Of a DNA stretch of 64,000 nt, positions 36,056 to 61,109 are shown piece by piece. The stretch is from a virus: positions 1 through 64,000 of IMG/VR virus record IMGVR_UViG_3300021088_000010, one strand, 5' to 3'. A model generated the notes under the pieces. It was not told the DNA's origin, did no database searches, and saw nothing but the letters and a program-made list of their open reading frames with translations. Each line of letters opens with the position of its first letter. Positions within the stretch are counted from its first letter, which is position 1. The translations under genes were made by a program, and so were the position numbers.

Positions 36056-36595
36056 TTAATCTCCTAATCCTGTAGCTAGATACTTTTTAGGGTGTGCAAT
36101 AAACTTATCCATTTCCACAGGCATATAGTTCGTATACTCGACCGAAAATAGCCGCTGCCAAGGATGTCTAAGCTTAACGGCAGGGAACTGTCCTGGTTGA
36201 TTGAAACCATGCCAAATATTGTGTAAATGCCCGTGTATGTTTAAGATACAGCCAGGGGGTAGATGGTCTGCTGGTTCATGAGTTAACCAGCATCTTCGTA
36301 GTATAAGACTATCCACACAACTATCAAAGCCGTGATCTATCCACCATCCTGCGCTCTTTTTTCTATCGTGGTTCCCACGAATCAAAGTTTTCTTTCCTGT
36401 TAGCTGAGGCCATATTACGTCCCATCCAGCGACCTTGTGCATAAAGACATCCCCAAGATGTATAATCATATCATCAGCTTTAACTATCTCTCGCCAGTTG
36501 CGAATTAACCTTTCATTGTAATCATCAGGGCGTTGGCAATAGGTTTTAATGTTATAGTGATTGAAGTGAGTATCAGAGATTAAATAGATGTTCAA
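36056..36595 (-). CDS. Calcineurin-like phosphoesterase 2
   Basis: 179 residues, TTG start. Motifs LISDTHFNH, HLGDVFMH, RGNHDRKK, WLTHEP and IHGHLHN define a compact metallophosphoesterase of the type frequent in phages. Metal-dependent hydrolysis of a phosphate ester is expected; substrate unknown. It is the second phosphoesterase of the window and differs clearly from the replication-operon one (27151). It overlaps the sigma-factor gene by 23 bases. Confidence 0.85.
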   Translation of the reverse strand: MNIYLISDTHFNHYNIKTYCQRPDDYNERLIRNWREIVKADDMIIHLGDVFMHKVAGWDVIWPQLTGKKTLIRGNHDRKKSAGWWIDHGFDSCVDSLILRRCWLTHEPADHLPPGCILNIHGHLHNIWHGFNQPGQFPAVKLRHPWQRLFSVEYTNYMPVEMDKFIAHPKKYLATGLGD

Positions 36596-37136
36596 CTCCC
36601 ACCCCCGGGGTCCTTAGCTTCAAAATAATCCTCTTCCACTGCCCCTTAACAGCATCCTCTGTAGTATCCAGCTCTGCTGCTATCTCATCATTAGAGAACC
36701 CGTGCATCTTCATATCTATAAGTTCTTGTTCTTCCTTAGACAGCTTAGCTATCCTCTTCTCTAGGTCAATTTTGGCGTCCATATCTCTGTAGAAGTCATA
36801 GCTTTGATCGTTGAGAATAGCTGTATCTAGTTCTTCTTCCTGTTGACCGTTACGCTTTCTTAACGCATCTATACAGGCGTGTTCTGTTACAGTATATACC
36901 CATGTACTAAAGCCACTCTTTTTAGAATCAAAGCTTGATAAGCCCTCAAACACTTTAAGGCAAGCCTCTCCTACTGCATCCTCTAGCTCTCTAAATTGGC
37001 TGCCATGAGTTCTTACTATTGTAGCTTCTATAAAAGTCATTAGGGCTAGTCCTAAAGCTTCATAGTTTTCAGAGGTAGGATTGTCTTTGTAAGCTTGGTA
37101 GGCTTCGTTTAACTGCGAGGGTTCTTTGGCGGGCAT
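36573..37136 (-). CDS. ECF-like RNA polymerase sigma factor
   Basis: 187 residues with a sigma region 2 (about 48-97: LEDAVGEACLKVFEGL, then GFSTWVYTVTEHACIDALRK) and a region 4 helix-turn-helix (about 131-175: LSKEEQELIDMKMHGFSNDE, IAAELDTTEDAVKGQ). There is no region 1.1 or 3, as in ECF sigma factors. It could redirect host RNA polymerase to phage promoters. The promoters I can see resemble sigma70 sites, so its own target sites are not evident. Its place in the accessory operon suggests control of a later gene class. Confidence 0.8.
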   Translation of the reverse strand: MPAKEPSQLNEAYQAYKDNPTSENYEALGLALMTFIEATIVRTHGSQFRELEDAVGEACLKVFEGLSSFDSKKSGFSTWVYTVTEHACIDALRKRNGQQEEELDTAILNDQSYDFYRDMDAKIDLEKRIAKLSKEEQELIDMKMHGFSNDEIAAELDTTEDAVKGQWKRIILKLRTPGVGVEHLFNL

Positions 37137-39570: not shown

Positions 39571-39873
39571 CTATGCTATGCCTCCTGCTTGGGGTTGATT
39601 ATTGTCAATCCTTTTCTGCCAATAAAGGGACCGATTCTTCCTAGTCCTGCGCGGCTCCTGAAATAAAGTCAAAGTATATCCATGAGGTAATTTCTTAGAC
39701 ACTACCCGTATCTTCTCAATCTTAGACATGCCCCCAAGTTTCATCATAACTTTACCTAAGGCCATGTTGCTAGTTTGGGGATGCGTGAGAATTAACAATT
39801 CCTTCACAGCCTTTGAGCCAGTGGACATGACTCCACTTGGATGCTTAAGGACAACTCTAAGACGAGTGCTCAT
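39571..39873 (-). CDS. Basic hypothetical protein, 100 aa
   Basis: Start taken at ATG 39873, which overlaps the upstream stop (ATGA) and follows GGGGGGAAGT. The product is basic with a beta-like N-terminus (TRLRVVLKHPSGVMSTG) and a RRTRKNRSLYWQKR end that may bind nucleic acid. Unknown. Confidence 0.5.
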   Translation of the reverse strand: MSTRLRVVLKHPSGVMSTGSKAVKELLILTHPQTSNMALGKVMMKLGGMSKIEKIRVVSKKLPHGYTLTLFQEPRRTRKNRSLYWQKRIDNNQPQAGGIA

Positions 39874-40094
39874 ACTTCCCCCCTCTTTAAGCCATGAGAC
39901 TCTAGCCATTCCTTGTATTTCTTACTTCCGTCTATACCTTCAAAATATCCTTTAGGATTTTCTTTGTAGGAAAAAGGTACTTCGCGTCTGATTAACTTAC
40001 CTGGACAACGAGAGCAATAGTTAAGGGGATGAGAGAAAGCTGTTTGACATAAAGGGCAAGCATAAACAACCCGTGTTCCAGTGATTTTAGTCAT
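39870..40094 (-). CDS. Zinc-ribbon protein next to the ATP-grasp gene, 74 aa
   Basis: CPLCQTAF and CSRCPGK form a zinc ribbon in the first half; the second half is a polar helix ending in HGLKRGEV. The ATG overlaps the stop of the ATP-grasp gene (ATGA), so it is co-translated with the amidoligase set. It may be a carrier, adaptor or unrelated protein. Confidence 0.55.
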   Translation of the reverse strand: MTKITGTRVVYACPLCQTAFSHPLNYCSRCPGKLIRREVPFSYKENPKGYFEGIDGSKKYKEWLESHGLKRGEV

Positions 40095-40843
40095 TGCGCC
40101 TCGGCCCAGTCTGAAATTAAGTTTGCCAGTCGGATACCTGTACTCCTTTTTGGAGAGTCAATGTTAGGCATGGAATTTACTTCTAGTACATAAATCTTTC
40201 CGTCCTTACCAAGGATAACATCAACCGCGCCAAAGTCCATGTTAAGAGCTTTCACCGCTTTAGTACTTGGAACCTCTATCTCCTTCATTCCACGTAGGTT
40301 ATCCCTTTTCTCGAACTTGAAACCAAACCTTCGATTCCGCATGAAGCCTTCGTACTCTCCCTCGCCTTTGTACACTTTCTCATAGATTCCAAATACCCTA
40401 TCTCGAAACACCCAAACACGATACTCGGTCTGAGTGGGAATCCATGCCACAAAGAAGTCTTTGTTGTGTGCAGCAGCTCTTACATCCTTCAATGTCTTAC
40501 AAACTACGATATCTTTACCTTTGACATGGTGGACATTCCGAGCCAGTACAATTTGTCCTTTGTCTAGGTTAACGTAATCTTCAAAGTCAGTGTGGGGATA
40601 TGGAGTCCTAATCTTGTTTCTAATAAACTGGAACATAGCACCAAGCTTGTCAAACTGATTCACCCCCGCATTAAGCGCTGGCTTGTTCCCTTGATATGAA
40701 ATGCCCCACCTTACGGTAACATCCCACCCTAACGGGTCCTTAGCATCTCTAGTAACACGATGTCCTTTAGCTTCAAGATGTCCCTTAAGGATGTTAACGG
40801 CTGTATTACCCTTACAGCCTCCTGCTATGTAAATTGACTTCAT
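40091..40843 (-). CDS. ATP-grasp amidoligase
   Basis: Start taken at ATG 40843, overlapping the amidotransferase stop (TGATGA). The 250-residue protein has an N-terminal domain (about 1-70), a middle with KDIVVCKTLKDVRA, WIPTQTEYRVWVFRDR (about 135-150) and the C-terminal metal/ATP-binding part MDFGAVDVILGKDGKIYVLE followed by VNSMPNID. The spacing D...E-x-N is typical of ATP-grasp ligases that form amide or peptide bonds through an acyl phosphate. The N-terminal acceptor is unknown. Its neighbours are the glutamine amidotransferase and COOH-NH2 ligase genes. Confidence 0.8.
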   Translation of the reverse strand: MKSIYIAGGCKGNTAVNILKGHLEAKGHRVTRDAKDPLGWDVTVRWGISYQGNKPALNAGVNQFDKLGAMFQFIRNKIRTPYPHTDFEDYVNLDKGQIVLARNVHHVKGKDIVVCKTLKDVRAAAHNKDFFVAWIPTQTEYRVWVFRDRVFGIYEKVYKGEGEYEGFMRNRRFGFKFEKRDNLRGMKEIEVPSTKAVKALNMDFGAVDVILGKDGKIYVLEVNSMPNIDSPKRSTGIRLANLISDWAEAQ

Positions 40844-41862
40844 CAATTAACCCTCCTTTGATCTATAACTCGAATCTTACTTTCTTCTTTAGGTTGCCAC
40901 AGCGAGCTACCACACCCCCCATTGCCAGTATCACAAGTGTACTGACTAAAGATACCATTAACAGGAATTAACCACTCCCTATCACACTTATAACAATAAG
41001 CAGGTTTCATCTTCCCATCACTACTAGCAGCCGGTTTCATCCTGTCATCCCACTTCTCTTGTCTCTTACTATATTCCTCATACGTCCTACGCCACGGTTC
41101 AGTATAGTCCCCTTGACAAATCTGGCATTCAACATGCGCTTCCAAGCCCTTAGGACCAATGATCCAAGCGGTATTATTAGCCATGTTAGCAAAGTCCACA
41201 TCCGGCCTCTGTGCTTGAAACCACATGCCCATCCTCATAACAAATGGCCTGCAAGCCTTATGCAACGTGGTTTTCTCACTAGAAAAGAAGAAGAAGTCCT
41301 CATTACTTGCCAATGTCAGAGGATTCCCGCTACGAACCAGCAATAACTTATCACGAAATTCGGGATGTACCCCTGCGATAGCCCCGCTACCACTAGCGCG
41401 AGCCAGAAATTTGATAGCCTCTTTGGTAAGTCCATACTTATCAACAATAGCTCGAATAATATCGGAATCCGTAGCTGCTTTCCTTTCAAGGTGCAGTATC
41501 TCAAATAGTTTATCATCATTCCGTATCACTCCGTTATGAATAATAGCTGAACACCCCGCAAACATTGGGTGATTATTCTTATTATCTCGGGGATTACCCT
41601 GAGAGGCTCCGCGAGCATGTATCAACACGCTCCGACTGTCAGGCTTAAGGTAGTCCTTGATAAACTGCTCATACTCTTTAGATGTAACCAGCCTCCAGCC
41701 TGGAACATCTTTCTTGATAATATTTAACGAGCCGTCACTTTGTTGGATACAAATTCCTGCACTATCGTTACCCCGGTGCTCATTACCGACTAGTAATATG
41801 CCGATTACTTCTTCGTTAATGGGCTTGTTGCCCCATCTAATACAGCCTGCTATGCCACAGAT
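40843..41862 (-). CDS. Class II glutamine amidotransferase with apparent AUC start
   Basis: The frame has GTG, ATG or TTG starts only from 41628 on, but a further 78 codons upstream encode the N-terminal half of a class II (Ntn) glutaminase domain. Residue 2 is Cys in CGIAGCIRWG, with HRGNDSAG (29-36), IHARGASQGN (81-90) and IIHNGVIRN (107-115). Since the catalytic Cys must be residue 2, translation should begin at AUC 41862, 10 bases after AGGAG. The 339-residue protein also has two C-terminal zinc-like pairs (CQICQ; CYKC and CGSS). It would release ammonia from glutamine for the ligases. Confidence 0.75.
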   Translation of the reverse strand: MCGIAGCIRWGNKPINEEVIGILLVGNEHRGNDSAGICIQQSDGSLNIIKKDVPGWRLVTSKEYEQFIKDYLKPDSRSVLIHARGASQGNPRDNKNNHPMFAGCSAIIHNGVIRNDDKLFEILHLERKAATDSDIIRAIVDKYGLTKEAIKFLARASGSGAIAGVHPEFRDKLLLVRSGNPLTLASNEDFFFFSSEKTTLHKACRPFVMRMGMWFQAQRPDVDFANMANNTAWIIGPKGLEAHVECQICQGDYTEPWRRTYEEYSKRQEKWDDRMKPAASSDGKMKPAYCYKCDREWLIPVNGIFSQYTCDTGNGGCGSSLWQPKEESKIRVIDQRRVN

Positions 41863-41866
41863 ATAG

Positions 41867-43276
41867 CTACCACTCCTCTCTAGGGTACGGTGCTTGTTTT
41901 CTTACTCCAGGTTTTATTGCAGGTTCAATTTCAGTCTTGGGTGGTTTCCCGACTATGTGATCCTTAAGCTTCCCCAAAGGGGCCTTAGGCGCACTCCTAC
42001 TAGGGTTATCCCACCTTGACCAATCGACTGTCTTGTAATCTACAGCCCTACACACAGGGAACAAATTCGTATTGCTTAACACGTTATGTAACATCTTACA
42101 CTGAGCAAGGGACTTGTTAAACTCGGAGGGTACACCTATCTGAATACCTCCAGAAGTTGTCCGATGAAAGACAATTTCATCTATACTACTTCTCAGAGCT
42201 TGCTTTATCCCCTGAATAGGTAAAGGTACATCATGATAGATGTAAAAATACTCTGTCACACTAAGATGTACTCTCCGACCTTTGGAGATTAAATCTTTAA
42301 CCACATCTGGCAGATGCCCAAGAGTGTGCTGTTGAACAGTTAAGTTATAGAATCCCTTAGGAAGTTGAAAAGGCTCCCACGTAGGTTGAGGTGTACGCTT
42401 TAGCATTGGTGTTCCCTGAGTCAAGTACTCAAACAACTCATGACATGTTTGTTCCTCAGGCTTAATCATGCTGGGGAAGAAGCAATTACCAAACTGATTA
42501 AAAGAGAAGTCTGTAGGAGCTTTTGTAAAGTTTTCCACCCCCCACCTACCTCTAAAATCTGTTGTATCTTCAGAAGGCAATCCCCACTTCTGCAAGGCAT
42601 GTAAGGCAATGGCTGCATCATCATCTCGATTTTGATACACTTGTAGCAAAGTCAAAATCGCATCATACTCTCTACCTTTCTCAATACGCCATTTGCTACC
42701 ACGATACAGCAATAACTTATTCAGCACCAACACAAAGTACATAAGCCACGGACTAGCCATTTGAGTAGGTAAAGTCCTGTACTCATACCCATGAGACTGA
42801 GGACGTACATCCCCGTACTTTCCATAATGTGTGTTGACCACTCGCGCATTAAAGGTATACTTATTAAACACACCTTGATTAATCAAGGTTTGGCATATTG
42901 TATCCAGTATCTCAACATCCTTCTGTCTATCTGGTCGCCTACGTCCCAGATGTATATGTCCGCCACAGCCATCCTTCCCGTTGTACGAGACAGCAGACCA
43001 AGTAAGCTGTGATATATCATACCTATGTACATAAGCCATCCATCTCAGTGAATCCACAATACTAGCCACGACCTCAAGAGCAAACTTGGAGGGATAAGCT
43101 CGAATCTCAGCTTGTCTACCGGCCATATCGGACCCGAAGGCTCTTGACGTAGTTAAGCCGCATGATTCAGCGTAGATATACTTTCCTGTAGCTGAGTTAA
43201 ACACAAACTCAGGGTCTAAGCCTAGGCTGAATCTGTTGCAAAGCCTTGCGGTGCGTGGATAGATAGAAATTCCCAT
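41867..43276 (-). CDS. phiEco32-type COOH-NH2 ligase 1
   Basis: 469 residues with the glutamine-synthetase-like amidoligase pattern of phage phiEco32: SLGLDPEFVF (17-26), GRQAEIRAYP (53-62), CGGHIHLGRR (104-113) and GYEYRTLPTQ (163-172). These carry the metal- and ATP-binding residues. The C-terminal 120 residues are Pro/Lys-rich and less conserved. The enzyme is expected to join an amine to a carboxylate with ATP. It lies 4 bases upstream of the amidotransferase start. The substrate is unknown. Confidence 0.85.
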   Translation of the reverse strand: MGISIYPRTARLCNRFSLGLDPEFVFNSATGKYIYAESCGLTTSRAFGSDMAGRQAEIRAYPSKFALEVVASIVDSLRWMAYVHRYDISQLTWSAVSYNGKDGCGGHIHLGRRRPDRQKDVEILDTICQTLINQGVFNKYTFNARVVNTHYGKYGDVRPQSHGYEYRTLPTQMASPWLMYFVLVLNKLLLYRGSKWRIEKGREYDAILTLLQVYQNRDDDAAIALHALQKWGLPSEDTTDFRGRWGVENFTKAPTDFSFNQFGNCFFPSMIKPEEQTCHELFEYLTQGTPMLKRTPQPTWEPFQLPKGFYNLTVQQHTLGHLPDVVKDLISKGRRVHLSVTEYFYIYHDVPLPIQGIKQALRSSIDEIVFHRTTSGGIQIGVPSEFNKSLAQCKMLHNVLSNTNLFPVCRAVDYKTVDWSRWDNPSRSAPKAPLGKLKDHIVGKPPKTEIEPAIKPGVRKQAPYPREEW

Positions 43277-43774
43277 TTATGCCCAACCCTCTGTACCAAC
43301 AAGATTTAATGCCTCTAGTAGAGCACGAGGCTGTGGTTCACTCTCGCACCACGCTTGAGTACAAGCTGATGAGCACAAAGGAACACCCCATTTTCTCTGC
43401 GCAGTATGGTGGTCACAAATTACGCACTTGCTATCCTTGAGCAATAAATCGTATGCGGCGCAGAGTCTTTTAGTACATCCTCCCTTGGCGAAGTGCAATT
43501 GTCTATCTGACGTAGACTCCGTGCTGTTATGACCGCATGATCTGCATTCAGCCAAGATATGCCCCGGTGCAGTTAGAATACAAGCCCAAAAGCGCCACTC
43601 CCACAGCTTGAAAAGACCTGGAATTTCAAATGGTTGATACACGTCCCTACCAGACCCAGCAGTGAGTATCCTACTCGCAGGCCAGCTCTCACGTTCTATT
43701 ACCAGCACAGGTTTCTTAGGGCCACGTACCCCGTGAGGCATTGTTTTCTGTGTAATAATCCAGCGTGGTATCAT
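43277..43774 (-). CDS. Zinc-binding hypothetical protein, 165 aa
   Basis: Starts at 43774, the overlap with the preceding gene (ATGA). The middle holds several Cys/His groups: AECRSCGHN, CTKRLCAAYD and CVICDHHTAQ, then CSSACTQAWC. The first half is Trp/Arg-rich. The stop is immediately before the ligase 1 ATG. It may be a partner of the amidoligase set. No family recognised. Confidence 0.55.
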   Translation of the reverse strand: MIPRWIITQKTMPHGVRGPKKPVLVIERESWPASRILTAGSGRDVYQPFEIPGLFKLWEWRFWACILTAPGHILAECRSCGHNSTESTSDRQLHFAKGGCTKRLCAAYDLLLKDSKCVICDHHTAQRKWGVPLCSSACTQAWCESEPQPRALLEALNLVGTEGWA

Positions 43775-44010
43775 TGATAGCTACCTCTCCATCTCCAATA
43801 AATCATCGCGTAGCTTTCTCCCGGTTCTTGGATTACATCAAATGTACCGTGTTTCGCACACTTATGTCGCCTACAATGAGACACAGAGCAAATAGATACA
43901 ACTCCATCACAAGTCGGACACTTGGTATTCACAGACTCAATCCACTTGTGCTCTTTATGTCTATAGGGTTTCATAAAATATTTGGAAAGCCTGTGCTCCC
44001 AACAAGCCAC
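43771..44010 (-). CDS. Zinc-ribbon protein, 79 aa
   Basis: CPTCDGVVSICSVSHCRRHKC gives several Cys/His ligands for one zinc-ribbon. The N-terminal basic part (RLSKYFMKPYRHKEHK) is poorly defined and the exact start among in-frame codons is uncertain. It lies at the start of the ligase 1 sub-operon, after a 333-bp non-coding stretch. Confidence 0.5.
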   Translation of the reverse strand: MACWEHRLSKYFMKPYRHKEHKWIESVNTKCPTCDGVVSICSVSHCRRHKCAKHGTFDVIQEPGESYAMIYWRWRGSYQ

Positions 44011-44343
44011 AGGCTCCCTCCAATCGCCGCTCTGCTTTTGTTTTCAGGACGTATTACGTTGATACGTTACAGAGTTAGGCTGCATTGGCCTGACGAATCA
44101 GGGCACTAGCTTATCACCTTACCCCTTGCGGGGGACCACGTACACTCCACTTTAAGTGCTATACTCATTGGCTTGAGCTAGCAGGTGGGTGTAATATCAT
44201 TGGCAGTAGCTAGTTAGGTCGAAGGGGAGCTTATGTCCTTACACCTAAAGTCCCTTCAGCTTCCCGTCAAGGCTTTCACCTTGACCGTATCGCTCCTTCG
44301 GTGGCTCTACTGCCAAACTCGTTAATAGGACCCTTGGGGTGGA
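44011..44343 (-). other. 333-bp stretch without a convincing gene
   Basis: No ORF with a Shine-Dalgarno sequence was found on either strand. On the minus strand the sequence holds a perfect 7-bp hairpin GTCAAGG/CCTTGAC (near 44260-44280) and a C-rich hairpin around CCCCGCAAGGGG. It ends in the GGACCCTTGGGGTGG repeat. It may contain the promoter of the ligase 1 sub-operon or a structured RNA; neither is proven. Confidence 0.35.
44328..44342 (+). repeat. Intergenic repeat GGACCCTTGGGGTGG, copy 2
   Basis: Identical to the copy at 35436-35450 and located one base after the stop of the 44344..44562 gene on the minus strand. Confidence 0.45.
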
Positions 44344-44562
44344 CTACATCCAGTTCCACTTACTTTTAGGTGATGTGGCTACGGACAGCTGCTTTATATT
44401 TCCACCGTCATCCATAGAAATAAGCGTGAGAGTACGTTCCGGTTCAACATCAAACTGGTCCGCCTCCTTTTTCGCCTCTGCTACAGTCTTGTAGGGTCCA
44501 TCGACTTCCACGTACATATCCCCCGATCCATCTCTACAGATAACGTAGTATAACTCTTTCAT
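44344..44562 (-). CDS. Hypothetical protein, 72 aa
   Basis: GGAGGACATATG provides a good Shine-Dalgarno/start pair. The protein has an alternating beta-alpha-beta pattern: YYVICRDGSGDMYVEVDGPY, KTVAEAKKEADQF and TLTLISMDDGGN. Small ferredoxin-like phage proteins of this type are common and of unknown function. Confidence 0.55.
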   Translation of the reverse strand: MKELYYVICRDGSGDMYVEVDGPYKTVAEAKKEADQFDVEPERTLTLISMDDGGNIKQLSVATSPKSKWNWM

Positions 44563-44580
44563 ATGTCCTCCTTTATAAGA

Positions 44581-45096
44581 TTACTCAACGTACCTAACCT
44601 CAAATCCAACCACCTTAGCATTTTGCCCCAGGTCCTTAAGCAAATACGTAACTAGGTTTCCGCTCTTTCCGTTTCTAAAAGCAGGTGTGGCAACCCAACC
44701 TCTGTCCAACGCTTTGGTCCAAGGCTCTTCCTTCCATAGCATCTTACTAAAAGCCGGGACACATTGCGTCATAGCCACTGATCCAAAAGCCGCGTTCTTG
44801 GCCGCTACCTCAACAAACTCTACTATCTGATCGAATAGTTCATAAGACCAAGGCTTAACTTGGATGTACGATAGGACTAACACTGCACAGCACCCTGGCA
44901 TTTGCTGGACTTGAAAGTTAGCTTTAAACTTCTTAGGTCCTATATGATCCCCCATCCAGCACTGTACCGGACTCCAATCATTCATACCCCAAGAGTGCTC
45001 TGGTTTACTATTAAACCAAAAACCACGTTCCTTGGCCAAGTCCCTAAGCATGTCTGTGATATAGTTTTGGTGGTCAACTACTAAACGGCCCTTCAT
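44581..45096 (-). CDS. Hypothetical protein, 171 aa
   Basis: Starts directly after the stop of the AIG2-like gene. Trp/Cys-containing alpha/beta protein with HSWGMNDWSPVQCWMGDH, MPGCCAVLVLSYIQVKPWSY and a Lys/Val-rich end. No catalytic motif recognised. Translational coupling with the cyclotransferase-like gene suggests it belongs to the amidoligase system. Confidence 0.5.
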   Translation of the reverse strand: MKGRLVVDHQNYITDMLRDLAKERGFWFNSKPEHSWGMNDWSPVQCWMGDHIGPKKFKANFQVQQMPGCCAVLVLSYIQVKPWSYELFDQIVEFVEVAAKNAAFGSVAMTQCVPAFSKMLWKEEPWTKALDRGWVATPAFRNGKSGNLVTYLLKDLGQNAKVVGFEVRYVE

Positions 45097-45510
45097 TTAG
45101 AATCGTCCTCCCTCTATTTTGTCTGTGTACCTGAAATCTTTGAAACAGTGTTCATATACCCAAGCATCCACCACCTTATCCACAGCCTCTTGCTCATCCC
45201 ACAGGCAGACAGGAACAATCTTCCGTGTGTAAACTCGCCCGTTTTGTTCTATACCATCCAGCCAATCCCACAACTCATCTGGGATGTCCCACAACTCGCC
45301 GTAAGCTATCTCTTTGTCCCTTGTTAAGCGAAGTCCTACTCCGCGAAATTTACCACCCCCAATGGGTCCTATGCCAAAGAGACTTGCACCTTCAATGTAA
45401 CATTCCCCCAAGAATTCGGCATCGTAGTTGGTCAAGTCAAGTTCAAGTCCCCTTTTAAGGATTCCATATGTCATGAGCTTTTTGTTTTCCATAGGATTCA
45501 TATACCCCAT
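45097..45510 (-). CDS. AIG2/GGCT-like gamma-glutamylcyclotransferase
   Basis: 137 residues. LMTYGILKRGLEL matches the substrate-loop YGxLxxG of the GGCT fold, followed by GASLFGIGPIGGGKF, EIAYGELWDIPDELWDWLDG and IEQNGRVY, where the GE of GELW is the position of the conserved catalytic Glu. The family removes gamma-glutamyl groups as 5-oxoproline or trims isopeptides. In phiEco32-like phages, AIG2-like genes accompany COOH-NH2 ligases, so it may process their product. Confidence 0.75.
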   Translation of the reverse strand: MGYMNPMENKKLMTYGILKRGLELDLTNYDAEFLGECYIEGASLFGIGPIGGGKFRGVGLRLTRDKEIAYGELWDIPDELWDWLDGIEQNGRVYTRKIVPVCLWDEQEAVDKVVDAWVYEHCFKDFRYTDKIEGGRF

Positions 45511-45805
45511 CTAATCGAGGAACAATGTGTCCAGGTCTGACCGATATATCCAATCCACCTACCAAACCGCTTCAGCCTGTAGGGTCCATTCAAGCATTAC
45601 GACTCTTTATGAGTGCTAGGGCTAAGCCCGTGGACTTTAGGAGCCTCTCAATGGTACAGCTGTCGCTATAAATTTAGCTTCCTGACTGGCAACCAGCAAT
45701 GACTAGATGCGAAAAGGTTTACCCTCCTCCCAGCCCGTACAGGGCCGCTGCTATCCCGTCATCTTCAGAGCGCGTTACATGCCTTTTAGATGGGGTATAT
45801 CAATC
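45511..45805 (-). other. 295-bp stretch without a convincing gene
   Basis: The only long frame here is on the plus strand and reads across the start of the next minus gene; it lacks a Shine-Dalgarno sequence. The minus strand contains several short inverted repeats (for example around CGGGCTTAGCCC) and AT-rich words such as AATTTATAGCG that could be a promoter. No tRNA cloverleaf was seen. It may be a leader or regulatory region for the AIG2-like gene. Confidence 0.3.
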
Positions 45806-45964
45806 CTATGTTATTGGCGTATCCAACTCGTACTCAGTAATACTTTTCTTCCCGTGAAACTTGATGTTTTCGGCTGCTTCTTCAGCTTTTTCTTCGGAGG
45901 AGAAGATACCTTCGATAAATGTATCCTCATAAGGTATAAAATCCTCCAACAGATACACTTTCAT
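45806..45964 (-). CDS. Small acidic helical protein, 52 aa
   Basis: ATG at 45964 overlaps the upstream stop (ATGA). The product has a beta start (MKVYLLEDFIPYEDTF), then GIFSSEEKAEEAAENI and SITEYELDT, a pattern shared by many small phage proteins of unknown role. Coupling supports expression. Confidence 0.6.
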   Translation of the reverse strand: MKVYLLEDFIPYEDTFIEGIFSSEEKAEEAAENIKFHGKKSITEYELDTPIT

Positions 45965-46176
45965 TTTGTGGCCTCCAGTACTCTCTTACCACACTCATAA
46001 CTCCCACAAATACTAACATCGTTAAGCTTACGGATTCCTGGGCGTCCACATCGGCACATAACTTCTGTATTTAATACACCCCGCCCACCACAATAAGAGC
46101 AAGGTGGATTGCTAACCCGTGCGTGAACATTATTGGGCTCATGGCCCAGACACATCGGACATTTTTTGAGTGCCAT
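45961..46176 (-). CDS. Double zinc-finger protein, 71 aa
   Basis: Start taken at ATG 46176, overlapping the ligase 2 stop (TAATG). Three Cys pairs: CPMCLGHE, CSYCGGRGV and MCRCGRPG, then CGSYECGK, suggesting a DnaJ-like or double ribbon zinc fold. Encoded directly after ligase 2 and coupled to it. Unknown function. Confidence 0.6.
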   Translation of the reverse strand: MALKKCPMCLGHEPNNVHARVSNPPCSYCGGRGVLNTEVMCRCGRPGIRKLNDVSICGSYECGKRVLEATK

Positions 46177-47156
46177 TATTCTTCCCAACGACTCCAAGGC
46201 TGTCCCGCATTTGGTATCCACTCATCTTCAAAATGCCAGTTGCCTACAAAGTTTTCATCTGCTTCTAATCCTTCTTCGCATAACCAAATAGCATTATTCA
46301 CAGATTTTACCTGCTTGTAGACTTGACTCAGAATCCAGCGAAACATAGGCTGATTCCTATAAATGATCTTTGTAGCTCTCTCATAGTCACAGTTATTAAT
46401 GACATCAATCGTCTCATCTTGGTTCCCTGCCCACAGATTCCCATACCGCGAATGAGCCAGCCTCACGCACATTCTGCCTATACCCCACGTTAATTGCATA
46501 ATGGCAGGTGATTGGAGCCAGAAGTTAGATAGGACACGATACTCAACCCCTAACCCTTCTGTATACTTCGGCTTTCTAAACTCGCCCGCAAGCCCATAAT
46601 ATTGCCTGCGAATAGGATTATCTATATGCCGTGCTACTCCTACAGACCACACACCTAAGATATTGTCTAGAGTCTTAACAATCTTCTCGTAGTTTGGCTT
46701 CTGTGTAGTCCACGTCCCAAAATGGCAATGTCCACCAGCAAAGCGATACGGTAGCTTACGCGGATTAGCCACAGGCTTACCGCGCATATTATAAGCATTA
46801 TAACTCGGTTCGCACCCTAATTCCACATGCCTAGGGTGTGCGTTATCTAGTATAACTTGAGGAACTCGAACTACATTCTTTAGAGATAGGCGAGCCTTGG
46901 GGTCTTTCTGTAAAGCTAGGCTATTCAATTCTATCAGCCTTTCTCTCGTGTATTTGACAAGATTATTTTGGCAATGTGCTCCCTCATGGTTGTACTTCCA
47001 TTCAGCCTGGAACCCGTCATTATACAGCATTACATCTTTACCTTTACCGGGTAAAAACTCAAAAGCAGGGAGTAATTTAAGACCTGAGTAGACAAAGCAC
47101 TCTGGGTCTGCTCCCAAAGAAATTGTACGTCTCTTTGATACACGTCCCTCAATCAT
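46176..47156 (-). CDS. phiEco32-type COOH-NH2 ligase 2
   Basis: Start taken at ATG 47156, overlapping the preceding small gene's stop (ATGA), 10 bases after GGAGG. The 326-residue product has SLGADPECFVY (13-23), FQAEWKYNHEGAH (49-61), FAGGHCHFGTW (139-149) and GVEYRVLSNFW (203-213). This is the same glutamine-synthetase-like amidoligase pattern as the 41867 product, though the two are clearly diverged. It would form an amide bond with ATP. Two ligases suggest two successive additions or two substrates. Confidence 0.85.
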   Translation of the reverse strand: MIEGRVSKRRTISLGADPECFVYSGLKLLPAFEFLPGKGKDVMLYNDGFQAEWKYNHEGAHCQNNLVKYTRERLIELNSLALQKDPKARLSLKNVVRVPQVILDNAHPRHVELGCEPSYNAYNMRGKPVANPRKLPYRFAGGHCHFGTWTTQKPNYEKIVKTLDNILGVWSVGVARHIDNPIRRQYYGLAGEFRKPKYTEGLGVEYRVLSNFWLQSPAIMQLTWGIGRMCVRLAHSRYGNLWAGNQDETIDVINNCDYERATKIIYRNQPMFRWILSQVYKQVKSVNNAIWLCEEGLEADENFVGNWHFEDEWIPNAGQPWSRWEE

Positions 47157-49578: not shown

Positions 49579-49724
49579 TATCTAATCCACTCCTTTGTCT
49601 TGGGATCGAATTCTTGTCTACCACGCTTAGCATTACTCTCACGCTGCTTAGCGCGGTAGTCCTCACGGGAACGTGGATTTTTGCGCTCTCTGTGTGAAAC
49701 AGTGTTTTTCTTTCTAGTGGCCAT
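49578..49724 (-). CDS. Highly basic peptide, 48 aa
   Basis: 48 residues, about a third of them Arg or Lys (TRKKNTVSHRERKNPRSRED and onward), ending FDPKTKEWIR. The TAA overlaps the next ATG and its 5' end overlaps the macro-domain gene by 11 bases. Likely nucleic-acid-binding; unknown role. Confidence 0.5.
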   Translation of the reverse strand: MATRKKNTVSHRERKNPRSREDYRAKQRESNAKRGRQEFDPKTKEWIR

Positions 49725-50148
49725 ATGTAATCACCCACACATTATCCAATAGAATAGTCTCAATCACAGGCTTAACGTCCACCCACTTCAACCCACCATT
49801 ACCACAGCCCGGACGTGGTAGAATGAACGTAGTCTCAGCGTCACAAGCTGCGTAAAACTCTGCTGACTTCTTAATCAACTCAATGTCTGATTTCTCCCAC
49901 CATACATGCTTTGTGGGAAATGTCATAATAGGCTCCGCTGGCACTCTAAACGGAACATTTCCATTCAACTTTATGTGATAGCCTAGTAGATATGGCAACT
50001 GTGGAATACGTTGCTTAGCTTCAAGCGCACATCCACGGCCCATGACACACTCGCCATTCTTCTTGACAAATCCATTTGTGGTAACTAGAATGACAAAGTT
50101 ATCCTTGCCATAGTAGTCCCACAAATTACCTTTGATTTCACGCATCAA
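49714..50148 (-). CDS. Macro-domain protein (ADP-ribose binding)
   Basis: 144 residues: GNLWDYY, FVILVTTNGFVKKNGECVMG (about 18-37), RGCALEAKQRIP and LPRPGCGNGGLKW (about 110-122). These are the nucleotide-binding loops of macro domains. The family binds or hydrolyses ADP-ribose, and phage members can reverse ADP-ribosylation or act on ADP-ribose derivatives. In a phage it could counter host toxin or NAD-based defence; that is inference. It is coupled to the gene upstream (ATGA). Confidence 0.8.
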   Translation of the reverse strand: MMREIKGNLWDYYGKDNFVILVTTNGFVKKNGECVMGRGCALEAKQRIPQLPYLLGYHIKLNGNVPFRVPAEPIMTFPTKHVWWEKSDIELIKKSAEFYAACDAETTFILPRPGCGNGGLKWVDVKPVIETILLDNVWVITYGH

Positions 50149-59981: not shown

Positions 59982-61109
59982 ATGAGCCTATTCAGGAATG
60001 AATCTCCTAATCTCGGTAAAAACACTACCTGTAACTGGTTGTCGGGTTCTGACGTTCTTGTTGCAAGGGATATGTACGCAATTCCCACAGCCGGACCTCA
60101 TGAACAAGTTTTTGGACAACCCCCTCTCACTAACCTTGCTATTGATCCCAACACTCAACGTAGCTATGCTATCGTAGCTCCTGCTGCGACTACCTTCACG
60201 CTAGGTGCGCCCTCACTAGGACCCCTCGTTTCGGGTTCTGGAGTTGGTCCTCTTAGTGATGGCAAGGTGCTTATTTTCAAATCCTTTACCAACTTCGCCC
60301 ACATTATAAGTGCTCCCGGTCTAATCTTAAATGGGACATCTTCTACTCCGCTCGACTTTATTCAGTTTCCTCCCTTTGCGGGGGCTGCTGTAGAGTTGAC
60401 GGCGTATCAGGGCTTTTGGCTTGTCAACAACTTTAGTCCTGTTGGAAATCCTGGTGTTGTTGTGGGTGCAGGCTCCCCAGGTGCTCCACAACTAGGCTTT
60501 GCCTCCACCTACGCTATCGGCGCTCGCGCAACAGAAACCGATGCGGGCACTTCTTCGATTACTGGAAATGCATACCTGTCTCCGGGGACTTCGTTTAGCG
60601 GTAATACGACAGTCTCAGGTAGGACAGATATTAATAACGCTAACTCAACTCAAGCAGAAGCGGCAGTTCAGGCTGCTTATCTATACTTGGCTAGTCAAAC
60701 TAGTACTAACGTGTTGCCAGGAAGTCTTAATAGCGTTACCATTACTCCAGGTGTTTGGACTGTGGCAACCTCTACGGGCACCACTGGAGCCGCTAACGTG
60801 AACTTCGATGCTCAAGGTAATGCCAATGCTATTTTCATCTTGCAAATTGGGACTACTTTGACATTCGGATCAGGAACAACCATCACGCTTCTTAATGGGG
60901 CTCAAGCTAAGAATATCTTCTGGCAGGTTGGCACTTCTGCAACATTTGCTGGAACAGGTGTTGTCTCCTTCAAAGGCAATCTCTTGGCTGCAGTTTCAAT
61001 CTCAATGGGTACTTCGGGGGCCACTGTTGGTCGGCTCTTCGCAGGGTCCAATGGGGATGCAACCGGGGCTCTCTCATTTGCAGGGACTAACACTGTTGTA
61101 ACTCCATAA
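59982..61109 (+). CDS. Virion-associated protein with DUF3494 ice-binding-like domain
   Basis: 375 residues. Residues 1-165 are a beta-rich phage-type N-terminus that probably attaches to the particle. Residues 170-375 match the DUF3494/ice-binding-like domain: LGFASTYAIGARATETDAG, SPGTSFSG, AAVQAAYLYLASQ, LNSVTITPGVWTV, NVNFDAQGNANAIFILQIGT, LLNGAQAKNIFWQVGTSATF, VSFKGNLLAAVSISMGTSG and VGRLFAG. This beta-solenoid occurs in antifreeze proteins and bacterial adhesins. As part of a phage particle it may act in adhesion. Function on the virion is inference. Confidence 0.8.
   Translation: MSLFRNESPNLGKNTTCNWLSGSDVLVARDMYAIPTAGPHEQVFGQPPLTNLAIDPNTQRSYAIVAPAATTFTLGAPSLGPLVSGSGVGPLSDGKVLIFKSFTNFAHIISAPGLILNGTSSTPLDFIQFPPFAGAAVELTAYQGFWLVNNFSPVGNPGVVVGAGSPGAPQLGFASTYAIGARATETDAGTSSITGNAYLSPGTSFSGNTTVSGRTDINNANSTQAEAAVQAAYLYLASQTSTNVLPGSLNSVTITPGVWTVATSTGTTGAANVNFDAQGNANAIFILQIGTTLTFGSGTTITLLNGAQAKNIFWQVGTSATFAGTGVVSFKGNLLAAVSISMGTSGATVGRLFAGSNGDATGALSFAGTNTVVTP

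Follow-up and report, generated by a model that had tools for sequence, protein, structure and literature searches.

An amidoligase cassette has been annotated in phiEco32, LUZ24, RIO-1, PA11, CW02, CVT22, Klyazma, phiM6 and other phages. In the RIO-1-like phages it comprises seven genes, including those for a glutamine amidotransferase (GATase), a gamma-glutamyl amidoligase, a second amidoligase, an ATP-grasp protein and GGCT (PMC5498523), and the cassette is also present in phiM6 and PA11 (PMC6256558). It was called a 'peptidoglycan modification cassette', and the proposal was that it alters the surface of the host as a protection from superinfection (PMC5498523, PMC6256558). With respect to translation initiation, the closest described case is E. 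coli infC, the gene for IF3, in which an AUU start limits expression and carries the IF3 control, according to the part of PMC9845219 that cites Butler 1987 and Brombach 1987. The DNA analysed here (the window) is 64 kb out of the virus record IMGVR_UViG_3300021088_000010 of 64,450 bases. It has matches to a phage portal, a major head protein, a terminase large subunit and a DNA polymerase, and therefore the source virus is a phage. A cluster at 40091-47156 on the minus strand adjoins the phage replication genes and lies in the replication/early region. We read this cluster as a variant of the phiEco32/RIO-1-type cassette, with translation of the GATase beginning at a deliberately weak start codon, with a probability of about 0.72. 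The kind of system is already known; what is unusual is that a second PF14395 enzyme replaces the PF12224 amidoligase, and that the GATase starts at a non-AUG codon, two features that were overlooked in a first reading of the sequence (the original prediction).

The original prediction had placed five proteins of the cluster, an ATP-grasp ligase, a class II GATase, two glutamine-synthetase-like ligases (GSA and GSB; gene names as in Table 1) and a GGCT, in these families on one strand, and Pfam and PHROGs confirmed all five. The Pfam scores were 29.3 bits for the RimK ATP-grasp (curated cut-off 21), 47.1 bits for GATase_6 (cut-off 27), 55.2 and 37.3 bits for PF14395 in GSB and GSA, respectively (cut-off 25), and 35.4 bits for GGACT (cut-off 22.8). 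The PHROG label of the ATP-grasp protein is 'S6 glutaminyl transferase'. In the alignments with 8-14 phage relatives, all five proteins keep their conserved motif residues, i.e., Cys1, H108-N109-G110 and D131 in the GATase; GxDPE, GGHxHxG and EYR in both ligases, with the GSB motifs invariant across 14 sequences; R141, D207, E220 and N222 in the ATP-grasp protein; and Y15-G16 and the invariant E72 in GGCT. The prediction was to fall with fewer than three family placements or with lost catalytic residues; five of the five proteins were placed, and the conserved motif residues are kept. Zinc-ribbon proteins coupled to the enzymes had also been proposed. Zinc proteins are indeed present, but they comprise p86, p74 and the double zinc-finger protein p165, which has eight invariant, zinc-ligand-like Cys/His residues (C77, C80, H94, C100 and C117, C120, C134, C138). 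A Pfam search with p86 gave nothing over the cut-off. The zinc proteins were also considered as amino-group carriers; judged by eye only, p86 is without an obvious acidic C-terminal carrier tail.

To compare the locus with the described cassettes, IMG/VR was scanned. Single-protein scans with GSB, GATase and GSA gave no matches, and alignment queries retrieved the relatives, with at least 500 relatives of PF14395. Among 173 ligase loci, in which some contigs were counted twice, 164 also hold the GATase, the ATP-grasp protein, the PF12224 amidoligase and HYP, a protein of ~190 aa. The same core was found in 139 of the 158 loci from later scans, which overlap the first scans in contigs. In its constancy, HYP (e.g., L009, 8170-8739) equals the enzymes of the canonical cassette. 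Like the cassette of phiEco32, LUZ24, RIO-1, PA11 and CW02, the window has a PF14395 ligase, a class II GATase, a RimK-type ATP-grasp protein and GGCT, which is often present there, on one strand in a single operon-like block close to replication genes. Unlike it, the window has neither the PF12224 amidoligase nor the ~190-aa partner, but GSB, p165 and p86 instead. No frame of the window matched the rich profiles of PF12224 and HYP (137 and 134 relatives, respectively). The phiEco32-type amidoligases of the original prediction are thus real as two glutamine-synthetase-like ligases, but both belong to PF14395, and the usual PF12224 amidoligase is absent. Trimming of the product by the cyclotransferase, as it had suggested, is not obligatory, because GGCT was found in about a third of the first-scan loci, in about half of those in the later scans, and in 4 of the 14 contigs of the window's own group. 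At one locus of the canonical type (L094 and L155, the same contig), two PF14395 ligases were observed, possibly another ligase duplication. PADLOC gave no match to a known defence system.

The alignment query with GSB retrieved 13 further contigs, many of them near 65 kb, from an uncultured phage group. GSA, p86, p165, GSB, GATase and ATP-grasp lie in the same order in all 14 contigs, and hence their co-occurrence, which had been predicted, is not due to chance. PF12224 and HYP were not found in the 13 sister loci either. GSB is not a diverged PF12224 enzyme, because the profile-profile probability was 2.7% for PF12224 and 97.6% for PF14395; p165 and p171 were likewise rejected as the usual ~190-aa partner, to which they have no similarity. 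The structure model of GSB (mean pLDDT 80.5) has a glutamine-synthetase-like fold and is closest to Dop/PafA (Z 13.5, root-mean-square deviation 4.1, 250 residues), followed by YbdK (Z 12.4); GshA and YbdK score nearly as high as Dop/PafA. GSB shares with Dop/PafA and YbdK the fold and the ATP/Mg ligase motif type, but the identity is 11-14%, and the C-terminal part of GSB (beyond ~residue 306) lies outside the matches. A search of PDB sequences with the GSB profile gave chance bromodomain matches only, and the p165 model (pLDDT 79) matched nothing in the PDB at E<=0.001. It appears that the PF12224 step is replaced by the second PF14395 enzyme, and the two enzymes would then catalyze the same reaction. 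A replaceable PF12224 step would limit the functions that can be required of the conserved core.

In class II GATases, the catalytic Cys must directly follow the initiator Met. In the window, no ATG, GTG or TTG lies between the upstream stop and Cys1 of the GATase; ATC precedes the TGT, 10 nt after AGGAG. A start at the GTG at 41628 was rejected, because the catalytic Cys1 would be lost, and the gene begins at 41862 with ATC. Among 218 phage GATases, the codon before Cys1 was ATG in 156, ATT in 31, TTG in 15, ATC in 12, GTG in 3, ATA in none and another codon in 1. ATT or ATC therefore precedes Cys1 in 43 of the 218 genes (~20%), while ~4.5% would be expected by chance if this codon were no start, together with many other codons. 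Open frames without any NTG before the conserved core were 26 of 137 for the GATase, and 0/141 for the ligase, 0/128 for the ATP-grasp protein, 1/78 for PF12224, 0/128 for HYP and 1/45 for GGCT, where a tighter limit was applied to the GATase than to the other genes. Rare GATase starts are found also in the isolates phiEco32, O4, Klyazma, Asterion, Bas86, Bas93 and KBNP1711, which include BASEL phages. The GATase gene of phiEco32 starts with ATT, in the arrangement AAAGGGTTTACCCTTCAGGTGGATTAGAAA-ATT-TGT. That of Klyazma starts with ATC and is annotated from a downstream GTG, with loss of the Cys, and that of O4 is annotated shorter, although ATC-TGT is present upstream. In the deposited records of O4 (L215), Klyazma (L013) and Asterion (L216), the GATase starts downstream, without the catalytic Cys1. 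AUU/AUC starts account for this misannotation, by which several phage records delete the catalytic cysteine. To our knowledge, AUU/AUC starts are known in just a handful of bacterial genes, and no report of AUU starts in phages was found in the limited literature searched. With AUU/AUC in about a fifth of its genes, together with a recurring hairpin and a strong SD (see below), this phage enzyme family provides many natural examples for work on non-AUG initiation, some of them in phages of laboratory E. coli and Pseudomonas. Separately, the GATases of L034 and L371 begin with ATG-TGC-TGT, so that either of two N-terminal cysteines is a candidate for the catalytic one.

The leaders of the AUU/AUC genes differ from those of the AUG genes in two respects. 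The Shine-Dalgarno (SD) pairing was stronger (median -9.1 versus -6.2 kcal/mol, p=5e-6) with the same spacing, and the SD was stronger also at TTG/GTG starts. A hairpin in the 26 nt before the SD was more stable (median -4.3 versus -0.5 kcal/mol, p=5e-6), and a strong stem was present in 54% of the AUU/AUC starts and 17% of the AUG starts. From this first sample, only exact duplicates were removed. In the second sample of 69 non-redundant genes, six had ATT, with a strong stem in five of the six versus 10 of 60 ATG genes (Fisher p=0.0017) and an SD pairing of -9.2 versus -6.0. In the pooled set, 28 of the 43 AUU/AUC genes have a strong stem, with a median distance of 14 nt from its 3' end to the start codon. 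Among genes matched for the intergenic gap (>=16 nt), the hairpin was found in 20/31 versus 9/57 (p=9e-6), and the difference in SD persisted (p=3e-8); by this stratification, the differences are not explained by a larger gap alone. The other genes at the same loci have neither the strong SD nor the hairpin. The stems, such as AACCTC(GTT)GAGGTT, ACGACA(AAA)TGTCGT and TTAAAGC(GGAA)GCTTTAG, vary in sequence among the phages, and it is the structure that recurs. A sequence-specific operator is thus disfavoured as an explanation of the hairpin. No known RNA family was found at the leaders, and only two tRNAs were found across 11 loci.

On a quick tree of 135 GATases, in which the window GATase sits on a long branch, the ATT/ATC label needs 26 changes, of which at least 15 are forced by the starred branches. 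Nearly identical genes differ in their starts, with TTG in PA11 versus ATC in O4, and ATG in L041 versus ATT in L042. On the other hand, all seven phiEco32-group phages read have ATT with an identical 30-nt leader, while their coding DNA goes down to ~73% identity. From these results, weak starts come and go often, yet persist in some lineages. Several points weigh against our reading of the cluster. The window GATase itself combines ATC and a strong SD with a weak hairpin (-2.7 kcal/mol), and 156 of the 218 relatives start with an ordinary ATG, which shows that the unusual start is dispensable. The sequences are related, and therefore the p values given above are descriptive and not those of independent samples. 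The leader conservation in the phiEco32 group could reflect recent descent. As for the cassette, we know of no product, substrate or ammonia transfer for any such phage cassette, and the peptidoglycan target is a proposal from the literature, not a result.

The chemistry of the cassette and its target we infer entirely. The GATase would hydrolyse glutamine and hand the ammonia to one or both of the glutamine-synthetase-fold ligases, and the ligases and the ATP-grasp protein would activate carboxylates as acyl phosphates for the formation of amide or isopeptide bonds. The substrate may be a peptide that contains glutamate; a cell-wall precursor is the most likely one, in line with the proposal of earlier authors. 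GATase-fed amide-bond chemistry was the idea of the original prediction, and the families, the motifs and the conserved linkage back it as a predicted function. The biology had been presented there as open, but the cassette was already described (PMC5498523, PMC6256558). A target other than the cell wall, i.e., a host or virion protein that is amidated or glutamylated in a RimK-like manner, or a small amide metabolite, is possible at clearly less than even odds. The RimK type and the PHROG name of the ATP-grasp protein would suit such a target, as would the closeness of GSB to Dop/PafA, enzymes with a protein tag as substrate, and the constant partners p165 and p86, which could bind protein or nucleic acid. 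However, fold likeness does not set the substrate, as GshA and YbdK score nearly equally, and peptidoglycan was favoured by the earlier authors.

The account of the start codon is better supported than this chemistry. The AUC/AUU start and its strong SD, joined in about two thirds of the AUU/AUC genes by a compact upstream hairpin, most likely set or gate the synthesis of GATase at initiation, and a low amount of GATase relative to its ligases would limit futile hydrolysis of glutamine. In infC, too, a weak codon is combined with a strong SD, which makes IF3 sensitivity a natural guess; the GATase start may be throttled, and possibly responds to IF3 or the ribosome state as infC does. Like infC, the GATase genes have a rare AUU-class start, together with a strong SD. 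They differ from it as phage enzyme genes with many independent codon switches, with AUC as well as AUU, and with a hairpin directly before the SD. The further idea that the same switch of hairpin, strong SD and AUU/AUC has repeatedly been built before the GATase, gating the ammonia by IF3 or the ribosome state, is tentative and rather unlikely. A serious rival to a selected weak start, though in our estimate the less likely of the two, is drift, in which the start is tolerated and the role of the strong SD and the hairpin is no more than to make up for a mutated codon. The flips between nearly identical genes (PA11/O4 and L041/L042) fit drift, as does an SD that is stronger wherever the codon is weaker, TTG/GTG included; the lack of such features in the other genes of the same loci and the retention of ATT throughout the phiEco32 group despite the divergence of its coding DNA speak for selection of the weak start. 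It is very unlikely that ATC is an ordinary codon and no start, and that synthesis of the GATase begins at an upstream NTG, with a propeptide that cleaves itself off, or involves frameshifting from the preceding gene: although an in-frame NTG does occur further upstream in 7 of the 33 ATT/ATC genes of the first set, it is missing from the other 26, and in some of these just two codons separate the stop from Cys1; ATG, TTG, GTG, ATT or ATC precedes Cys1 in 217 of the 218 genes, far from the chance expectation given above; the SD strength and spacing fit initiation there; and the gene preceding the GATase varies between phages. A sequencing or assembly error in the metagenomic contig, suggested by the ATG of the nearest relative (L188), hardly deserves credence, since ATC or ATT follows the same leader in L177, L178 and L185 of the group, and independently sequenced isolates show the rare start too.

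Table 1. Features of the amidoligase cassette in the window
Feature	Position	Strand	Basis
GSA: PF14395 COOH-NH2 ligase, phiEco32 gp86 orthologue	46176..47156	-	Pfam, PHROG 3815 3.5e-32, motifs
p86: small zinc-ribbon-like protein, several CxxC	45961..46176	-	clustering: 14/14 contigs of the group
GGCT/AIG2-like cyclotransferase	45097..45510	-	Pfam GGACT, Y15-G16, E72
p171	44581..45096	-	present in the window and L188 only
p165: double zinc-finger protein, always present in the variant cassette	43277..43774	-	14/14 contigs
GSB: second, divergent PF14395 ligase, 469 aa	41867..43276	-	Pfam, model, motifs
AGGAG Shine-Dalgarno, within the GSB 3' end, 10 nt before the ATC start	41873..41877	-	sequence
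GATase ATC start codon, immediately 5' of TGT (Cys1)	41860..41862	-	sequence
Class II GATase with C-terminal zinc ribbon	40843..41862	-	GATase_6, PHROG 14519, Cys1, HNG, D131
RimK-type ATP-grasp ligase	40091..40843	-	Pfam RimK, PHROG 2599 4.6e-23
p74: small CxxC protein, overlaps the ATP-grasp gene end	39870..40094	-	sequence

The ATG of the ATP-grasp gene overlaps the stop of the GATase gene (TGATG). GSA probably starts at 47156, where the second ATG of the frame is preceded by a good SD; the open frame extends to 47210. Close downstream of the cassette, a phage sigma-70/ECF-like factor is encoded at 36573-37136 on the minus strand, and is kept in 12 of the 14 contigs of the group. Close upstream, a protein judged by eye to be macro-domain-like (ADP-ribose type) is encoded at 49714-50148, also on the minus strand. 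The gene at 59982-61109 on the plus strand of this phage genome adjoins the structural genes, and its product carries an Ice_binding-like domain (PF11999, 107.9 bits).

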